Part shown: positions 48,921-51,029 of the stretch, one piece after another
Numbering within the stretch: the first letter of the stretch is position 1
Layout: each line of letters starts with the position of its first letter
From: Aureimonas pseudogalii
GTDB taxonomy: Bacteria > Pseudomonadota > Alphaproteobacteria > Rhizobiales > Rhizobiaceae
DNA: 64,000 nucleotides
Reading direction: 5' to 3'
Assembly: GCF_014196835.1 (NCBI RefSeq)
Contig: NZ_JACIEK010000003.1
Location: 186,001 to 250,000, forward strand
The notes under the pieces: model-generated
What the model was told of the DNA's origin: nothing
The model's input: the letters and a program-made list of their open reading frames with translations, nothing else
Database searches by the model: none
Position numbers and translations under genes: made by a program

Positions 48921-51029
48921 ATGGCGCGCACCGCAGCAGCAACCCGATTCGGCGGCGAGGATCATCGCCGCCGGCAACTCATCGAAGCGACGATCCAGTC
49001 TCTCGCCGAGATCGGCTTCGCGGCGTCGAGCCTCGCCGAGATCGCCAGCCGTGCCGGCGTCGCGCCCTCGCTTGTGGCGCATTATTTCGGCGACAAGGAA
49101 GGGCTTCTCGAAGCGACGCTGCGCTTCCTCGCCATGCGGGTCTCCGACAGCGCCCGGCTGCGACTGGCGCGCGCCGACGGGCCGCGCGAGCGGATTCAGG
49201 CCGTCATCGACGCCAATCTCGCGCCCGAAGAATTCGATCGGCGCACCTGCTCGGTCTGGCTCGCCTTCTGGGGGCAGGTCATGCACTCGGCACGGTTGAA
49301 GCGCGTCCAGCGCGTCTACCAGCGCCGCATGCTTTCCAACCTGCGCTACGACCTGCGCGCGCTGGTCTCGTCCGACGACGCGCAACGCATCGCCGTGTCG
49401 ATCGCTGCGGTGATCGACGGCCTCTGGCTTCGATCGACACTGTCGGAGATCGGCGAGACAGACAGTCTGTCGGCGCGCGCCATCGCCACCAACTTCACCG
49501 ACGGACAGATCGCGGCAGCCCGACCTGCGGAGGTTGTCGTTACTGCGCCGCGGCCTAGACGCGCCAGCGGCACGCGCGTGCTCGCGAGCCATATCGGCGG
49601 CGCCTATATCGAGGTTGGCGATGCCGCCACCTTCCAGACGATCAACCCCGCTACGGGCGAGGTGCTCGCCGAGATCGCGGTGGCGGGCGAGGCGGAAGTG
49701 AACCGGGCGGTCGCCTTGGCCTCCGAGGCGCAGCGCGGTTGGGGCGCGATGACGGGCGCTGAGCGCGGCCGCATCCTCAACCGGGTGGCCGCACGCCTGC
49801 GCGAGCGCAACGCCGAACTGGCGATGCTCGAGACGCGCGACACCGGCAAGCCGCTTCAGGAGACCGAGGCCGTCGACGTGCTCTCCGGCGCCGACTGCAT
49901 CGAATATTTCGCCGGGGTCGCCGCAAGCCTCGCGGGCGAGCACGTGGATCTCGGGCCGTCCGCGTTCGGCTATACGCGCCGCGAGCCGCTCGGAATCGTC
50001 GCTGCGATCGGCGCCTGGAACTATCCGCTGCAGATCGCCTGCTGGAAATCCGCGCCGGCGCTCGCCGCCGGCAACGCCGTGATCTTCAAACCCGCCGAGC
50101 TGACGCCGCTGACGGCGCTGAAGCTCGCCGAGGTGATGACCGAATGCGGCGTGCCGCCGGGCGTGTTCAACGTCGTGGAGGGTGACGGCGCCACCGGCCG
50201 GCTCCTCTCGCGCCATCCCGGCATCGCCAAGATCTCGCTCACCGGCGAGGTCGGCACCGGCAAGAAGGTGATGGCGGACGCCGCCGGCACGCTGAAGCAG
50301 GTGACGCTGGAACTCGGCGGCAAGTCGCCGCTGATCGTCTTCGCCGACGCCGATCTCGACGATGCCGTGGGCGGCGCGATGCTCGCCAACTTCTATTCCG
50401 CCGGCGAGGTCTGCTCCAACGGCACCCGCGTCTTCGTGCACGAGGAGGTGCGCGAGGCCTTTCTCGAAAAGCTCGCCGTGCGCACGCGCGCCATGATCGT
50501 CGGCGATCCACTCAACCGGGCGACGCAGGTCGGCGCGCTGATCTCGGAGGCGCATATGAACAAGGTGCTGTCCTACATCGAGGAGGGGCGCCGCGAGGGC
50601 GCGCGCCTCGTCGTCGGCGGCGAGCGGGTCACCGAGGGCGCGCTGGCGAAGGGCTGGTTCGTGGCGCCCACGGTCTTCGACGCCTGCGACGACGGCATGC
50701 GCATCGTACGCGAGGAGATCTTCGGGCCTGTCATGACGGTGCTCTCCTTCCGCGACGAGGCGGAGGTGGTGTCGCGCGCCAACGACACGCGCTTCGGGCT
50801 GGCGGCGGGCGTCTTCACGCGCGATCTCGCGCGGGCACACCGCGTGGTGGCGGCGCTGGAAGCCGGCACGACCTGGATCAACACCTACAACATCACGCCG
50901 ATCGAACTGCCCTTCGGCGGCGCCAAGGAATCGGGCCTCGGCCGCGAGAACGGCCGCGCGGCGCTCGACGCGCACACGCAGGTGAAGAGCGTCTACGTCA
51001 ATCTCGGGCGCGTCGACGCGCCCTACTGA
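48921..51029 (+). CDS. BetI-BetB fusion: choline-responsive TetR repressor joined to betaine aldehyde dehydrogenase
   Basis: One uninterrupted 702-residue frame contains two whole proteins. Residues 1-195 are a TetR-family BetI: helix-turn-helix at about 38-57 ([28 protein letters not shown]), [12 protein letters not shown] and VIDGLWLR of the ligand domain. Residues about 196-220 are a Pro/Arg/Ala-rich linker. Residues about 222-702 are a complete betaine aldehyde dehydrogenase: WNYP (Asn367), Lys390 in FKPAELTP, Glu464 in LELGGKSP and catalytic Cys498 in GEVCSNGT. BetI (about 195 residues) and BetB (about 485-490) are normally separate neighbouring genes. No stop codon or ATG lies at the junction; a GTG at 49578 is in frame but has no ribosome site. 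The protein would oxidise betaine aldehyde to glycine betaine and also bind DNA. The ATG 48921 follows CGGAGGACA. betA follows 31 bp downstream. Confidence 0.9.

Follow-up and report, generated by a model that had tools for sequence, protein, structure and literature searches.

The choline repressor BetI and the betaine aldehyde dehydrogenase (BADH) BetB of Aureimonas pseudogalii are joined in frame in a single gene, and the one chain is probably both an autogenous BetI-type repressor and the enzyme that oxidizes betaine aldehyde in the pathway it represses. BetI is a choline-responsive repressor of the TetR family. The window analyzed is a 64,000-nucleotide stretch of the genome (assembly GCF_014196835.1, contig NZ_JACIEK010000003.1, positions 186,001 to 250,000), and an earlier note, made from its letters alone, had proposed that one stop-free frame runs through BetI, a linker and BetB in a layout like that of PutA. 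The fusion is real: the frame comprises 702 codons with no internal stop, from an ATG at 48921 that is preceded by GGAGG to a TGA ending at 51029, both halves score above curated family cut-offs, and Pfam places TetR_N (residues 20-65) and the BetI-type TetR_C_6 (88-197) N-terminal to Aldedh (235-691), each above its cut-off (Table 1).

The BetI half (residues 1-200) scores 206.3 bits against the NCBIfam TIGR03384 cut-off of 201.3, and the BetB half 671.7 bits against the TIGR01804 cut-off of 668.6, while also exceeding that of PRK13252; by score the halves are members of the BetI and BADH families, and their functions are predicted accordingly. All of N367, K390, E464 and C498, which we take to be the catalytic residues of the aldehyde dehydrogenase family, are retained in the BetB half, among them the three (Asn367, Glu464 and Cys498) that the earlier note had listed. 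An AlphaFold2 (AF2) single-chain model built from 36 sequences (pLDDT 82.2, pTM 0.65) has a helical N-terminal half and low-confidence stretches in the linker (205-212) and at 494-499 and 659-687; the solved structures that match it best are BADHs. The fused gene is the sole BetI match at E 1e-20 in its own genome, and its BetB half is the closest BetB match there, the next aldehyde dehydrogenase (ALDH) being 42% identical.

Table 1. Features of the fused gene and its surroundings in the window (positions are those of the window; boxes are predicted sites).
Feature	Position	Strand	Basis or remark
Fused betI-betB gene, 702 aa	48921..51029	+	Frame open in 20/21 genus genomes
BetI half, residues 1-197 (TetR_N 20-65, TetR_C_6 88-197)	48921..49511	+	Pfam, NCBIfam
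Pro/Arg/Ala-rich linker, residues 198-222 (~25 aa)	49512..49586	+	Model confidence <50 at residues 205-212; pN/pS
BetB half, residues 222-702 (N367, K390, E464, C498)	49584..51026	+	Family profiles, residues, fold
betA, choline dehydrogenase	51061..52731	+	828.5 bits vs cut-off 732.1
choX, choline ABC transporter binding protein, divergent	47602..48567	-	460.6 vs cut-off 379.05
choW, permease	46659..47516	-	412.9 vs cut-off 363
choV, ATPase	45453..46655	-	536.6 vs cut-off 483.75
BetI-type box 2, 16-bp core TTGAACGATCGATCAA at 48870-48885	48866..48885	.	Core 36-51 bases before start codon
BetI-type box 1, CTGAACGTCCGTTCAA	48705..48720	.	choX side; 165 bp from box 2 core

A sequencing or assembly artefact hiding a stop or frameshift at the junction, the refutation that the earlier note itself had named, has next to no chance of being the explanation. 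We reject it because the gene is present as one frame open across the junction in 20 of the 21 Aureimonas genomes searched, the other 19 copies being 72-88% identical to the window protein, and because the complete plasmid NZ_CP036405.1 carries a single annotated CDS (113639-115717) with BetI (208.6 bits) and BetB (837.5 bits) matches in frame. Across the 20 Aureimonas genomes the stretch covering residues 190-240 is 49 to 53 amino acids long, with whole-codon changes only, whereas the gap between the fused gene and betA falls in phases 0, 1 and 2 in 6, 8 and 5 of the 19 genomes in which a betA start was found; this codon-exact junction beside a freely varying spacing counts in favor of a fusion that works as one chain. 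In 12 chosen close pairs pN/pS was 0.13 for BetI, 0.12 for BetB and 0.58 for the linker (197-222). A scan of the genus for BetI at E 1e-20 or better returned the fused gene as the single match in 19 genomes, and in one (G005) the fused gene together with a weak second match (100.8 bits); the TIGR03384 cut-off was passed in 17/21 genomes, three fell 1.5-6.1 bits short, and the match was absent from G018. This last genome, the member of the genus that has no fusion, encodes an unfused BetB (L038) that is 58% identical and clusters with a distant relative (L172). It has no BetI match at E 1e-20; its BetB is likely a replacement.

The view that betI and betB are separate genes everywhere, from which the earlier note had started, does not survive wider sampling, and its suggestion to look for fusions in relatives brought out many single-frame copies within and beyond Aureimonas. 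Among the 38 loci of the first searches and the 80 best of 146 relatives kept from a scan of named genomes, 45/118 were fused (36 after omitting nine named copies). Wider samples, searched under a strict limit with an alignment of these 36 and counting the window's genome each time, contained at least 15 single-frame genomes among 397 from the order, at least 3 among 385 from the class and at least 5 among 398 from the phylum. With copies dropped, 52 distinct fused loci are found among the 188 loci sampled, among others in Aureimonas, Kaistia, a Bauldia MAG, Acidisoma, a Sphingomonas MAG, Novosphingobium, Caulobacteraceae MAGs and MAGs labelled Gammaproteobacteria. The plasmid NZ_CP036405.1 of Komagataeibacter saccharivorans adds a further one beyond these 52 (L223: 4983-7061); its product (WP_243705386.1) is annotated solely as betaine-aldehyde dehydrogenase, a name that hides the repressor half.

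That relatives might have the two genes split by a stop at this very point was another of the earlier note's possible refutations; this is not so within the genus, but it is outside the fused clade, where the separation is often one in-frame stop. Thirteen distinct unfused pairs share a frame and have a single stop between the genes (L028, L061, L141, L143, L145, L166-L168, L170, L172, L174, L176 and L177), and unfused pairs in frame and one or two stops apart were seen in L028, L061, L141, L143-L145, L166-L170 and others. Fusion would be a short step, since unfused pairs so often share a frame at such a distance.

Phylogenetic analysis of BetB (LG+G4; 166 rows, 11 known copies having been left out beforehand and four identical rows dropped) united 51 of the 52 fused rows in a single clade (SH-aLRT 98), which also contains 16 unfused rows. 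Under a mixture model, calculated for 66 chosen rows with the dead K. granuli row (see below) omitted, all 29 fused rows fell into one clade, with 10 unfused rows inside (support 91, not starred). The simplest reading of these trees would be one fusion followed by later separations and losses. We do not claim a second, independent fusion for L180, which lies outside the clade in the quick LG+G4 tree but inside it with the mixture model. Six loci inside the clade (L065 and L134-L138) have an adjacent but separate BetI, suggesting that the fused gene came apart again in several lines. In two Aurantimonadaceae (L063 and L064) BetB is nested with Aureimonas and apparently has an ATG start of its own; no BetI was found within the stretch read around it.

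The surroundings of the gene are those of choline uptake and oxidation. betA starts 31 bases past the stop of the fused gene, and the divergent choX lies on its other side; the choX start was chosen by us (the listed ORF extends to 48720), and from this inferred start to the fused gene there are roughly 353 bp, which contain two BetI-type boxes. Beside betA lies a gene for an AraC-type regulator (52745-53752, minus strand) whose best match is GbdR; its score of 328.1 bits does not reach the cut-off of 480. The earlier note had pointed to a BetI-type box at 48866-48885, and it is indeed present as one of two, the other being at 48705-48720; each predicted site has one mismatch to TTGAACG-N2-CGTTCAA.

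Searched with no prior motif, the upstream regions of the fused genes gave ATTGAACG/CGTTCAAT as their commonest 8-mer (32/52, compared with no more than 8 in any of 50 mononucleotide-shuffled sets), which resembles the Ruegeria BetI1 palindrome ATTGACG*CGTCAAT given in PMC12442346. The full 16-bp TTGAACG-N2-CGTTCAA is found twice ahead of most fused genes. A matrix trained on fused loci detected a first box in 51/51 fused and 33/34 unfused loci and a second in 47/51 versus 4/34; trained on unfused loci, it detected a first box in 34/34 unfused and 51/51 fused loci and a second in 2/34 versus 44/51, the two unfused loci being L135 and L136, which are separate members of the fused clade. Second boxes appeared in 0/1020 and 0/680 shuffles. 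For these counts L051 was dropped for its short upstream sequence, copies (L121, L133, L142, L148 and others) were left out, and the 34 unfused rows include six from inside the fused clade (L065 and L134-L138). Allowing up to three mismatches, two boxes were present in 35/41 fused versus 3/15 unfused loci with a divergent choX, and in 5/10 versus 0/19 without a detected choX; choX thus accounts for part of the association. The association may also represent one historical event, since nearly all fused rows belong to a single clade. The two boxes are 86-177 bp apart in 41 of the 47 loci that have both. Helical phasing of the spacing found no support at 10.5 bp (R 0.13), and we discount a signal at 11-11.5 bp (p about 0.01), which came from a scan of eight periods on hand-grouped values.

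Seven of 14 Kaistia genomes carry the fused gene, with an intact enzyme half in three (G280, G419 and G1133); in the other four (G357, which is K. granuli, G430, G407 and G1132; loci L067, L192, L193 and L194) the equivalents of Cys498 and Asn367 are lost together with a stretch over the NAD-binding loop, and the frame is nonetheless open. The copy in G1132 (L194) is cut by a contig end, beyond which most of its BetI half would lie. When the three complete dead forms are compared with one another, identity is 83-91% in the BetI half (dN/dS 0.11-0.16) and 44-58% in the ALDH half (dN/dS 0.40-0.58); intact pairs give dN/dS of 0.03-0.07. Two of the three BetI halves are above the NCBIfam cut-off of 201.3 (206.5 and 209.3) and the third scores 194.6; the BADH scores are 377.7, 394.3 and 240.2 (cut-off 668.6). 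All three keep two boxes, one at 0-1 mismatch and the second at two, and choX and choW still adjoin the fused gene.

No betA was found by tblastn in the 16 kb read around these three dead forms, and within Kaistia betA exceeds its cut-off (732.1) solely in G280 and G419. Since weaker GMC matches are present in other Kaistia genomes (for example 637.8 in G407 and 523.5 in G357), choline oxidation by another enzyme is possible there. In K. terrae (L049) the enzyme half is intact and choXW is present, with no betA detected by tblastn in the stretch read; it is possibly an intermediate. Simulation put the chance of a stop-free frame under neutrality at 0.11-0.15 per lineage, or 0.21-0.25 for a shorter time, so a single dead lineage says little in favor of a retained role, and whole-codon indels in the dead halves were discarded as evidence, as an open frame requires them anyway. 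The dead forms suggest, short of proof, that the enzyme half is kept for a non-catalytic purpose, and that catalytic sensing is dispensable in some members of the fusion. In K. granuli, deletions near residues 655-675 also affect the C-terminal end of the enzyme half, which might spoil assembly; the AF2 model of its single chain (pLDDT 61.9) is too poor for use. We do not argue for a single origin of the dead enzymes: an ALDH tree groups the four dead rows (99/99) but with long-branch warnings, and a tree of the BetI halves did not resolve their origin.

We envisage that the fusion is made as one polypeptide, in which the BetI half would repress choXWV and betIB-betA until choline binds its TetR-type pocket, and the BetB half would oxidize the aldehyde produced by BetA. 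Less surely, the enzyme half could double as a scaffold. As BADHs commonly form tetramers and TetR proteins form dimers, a single assembly would carry two dimers able to bind DNA and could keep both boxes joined. Such a tetravalent repressor, in which a tetrameric BADH half joins two BetI dimers, bridges the boxes and loops the choX-betIB promoter region, with the dead Kaistia enzyme serving as scaffold after the loss of betA, is put forward tentatively, as an idea with the odds somewhat against it; it would explain both why paired boxes accompany the fusion and why the dead enzyme halves remain open in Kaistia.

The joining might instead be neutral, loss of the betI stop having connected same-frame neighbors whose halves work as if alone, with no regulatory meaning. 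This would be compatible with both roles of the chain and would deny the scaffold or any coupling alone. A single substitution could fuse any of the 13 distinct relatives that are one in-frame stop apart, the linker evolves fast, and genes have separated again inside the clade; on the other hand, the fusion persists in several orders, its junctions are codon-exact in 20 genomes, paired boxes are tied to the fused clade and the dead Kaistia halves remain in frame. On balance we consider neutrality rather doubtful. Coupling of the kind known from PutA, in which NAD+ or betaine aldehyde on the BetB half would alter DNA binding by the BetI half, could be argued by analogy from the shared architecture and from Ralstonia PutA, which binds DNA less with NAD+ (PMC9132996). 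We think it unlikely: catalytic residues and NAD loop are gone in four Kaistia genomes, although in three of these the BetI half is intact and the two boxes are present, and the linker is variable and of low confidence in the model, unlike a rigid coupling. The dead forms suggest that such a redox or substrate switch is at least not universal.

More improbable still is that two products are made, the full fusion and a BetB from an internal start. A linker start codon with a Shine-Dalgarno-like string occurs in 10/52 loci, all but L026 outside Aureimonas, and in five it is an ATG (L054, L056, L059, L125 and L127), so that unfused BetB may be an additional product in some species. Within Aureimonas an ATG is present in 2/20 linkers, with a Shine-Dalgarno-like string before it in 0/20, and a GTG with such a string in 1/20; because linker starts of this kind are nearly absent, internal initiation of a free-standing BetB looks unlikely in this genus.

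The fusion can be set against known systems. With stand-alone BetI (TIGR03384) the fusion shares domain content, score, the palindromic box and a position in the bet-cho cluster, but where BetI ends it runs on through the linker into a whole aldehyde dehydrogenase, and most fused loci have two boxes where most unfused loci have one. Stand-alone BetB (TIGR01804; solved relatives 3r31, 2wme and 6wsa) has the same full length, catalytic residues and fold, and lacks the N-terminal repressor. The analogy with trifunctional PutA is fair, as there too a DNA-binding domain precedes, in the same chain, an aldehyde dehydrogenase from the pathway under its control; its ribbon-helix-helix and proline dehydrogenase domains, however, are absent from the window protein, in which Pfam finds TetR_N, TetR_C_6 and Aldedh alone. 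The two-BetI system of Ruegeria pomeroyi resembles the fusion loci in having BetI-type boxes, two of them in one divergon, but differs in its separate BetI proteins, its overlapping boxes and a betB located elsewhere; in that report (PMC12442346) "fusion" refers only to a PCR method, and the word "fused" is absent. Among the open-literature matches listed, mostly judged by title or the start of the abstract, BetI and BetB appear as separate proteins and no BetI-BetB fusion is reported. As far as these matches reach, the nature and spread of the fusion, its paired boxes and its dead forms appear to be undescribed; the gene itself is already in public databases as protein records.

If our reading is true, the fusion would be a second regulator-enzyme architecture beside PutA, built with TetR-family parts and uniting a repressor and a dehydrogenase in one molecule. 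Because the annotated plasmid copy is named for its dehydrogenase alone, a genome carrying such a gene can be misread as lacking BetI. Since the pair occurs naturally in several states (unfused, fused, fused with a dead enzyme, and separated again), and with paired boxes, what is gained by linking a regulator to its enzyme can be tested directly; and if the scaffold reading is true, a dehydrogenase would have become a structural component of a transcription factor in Kaistia.
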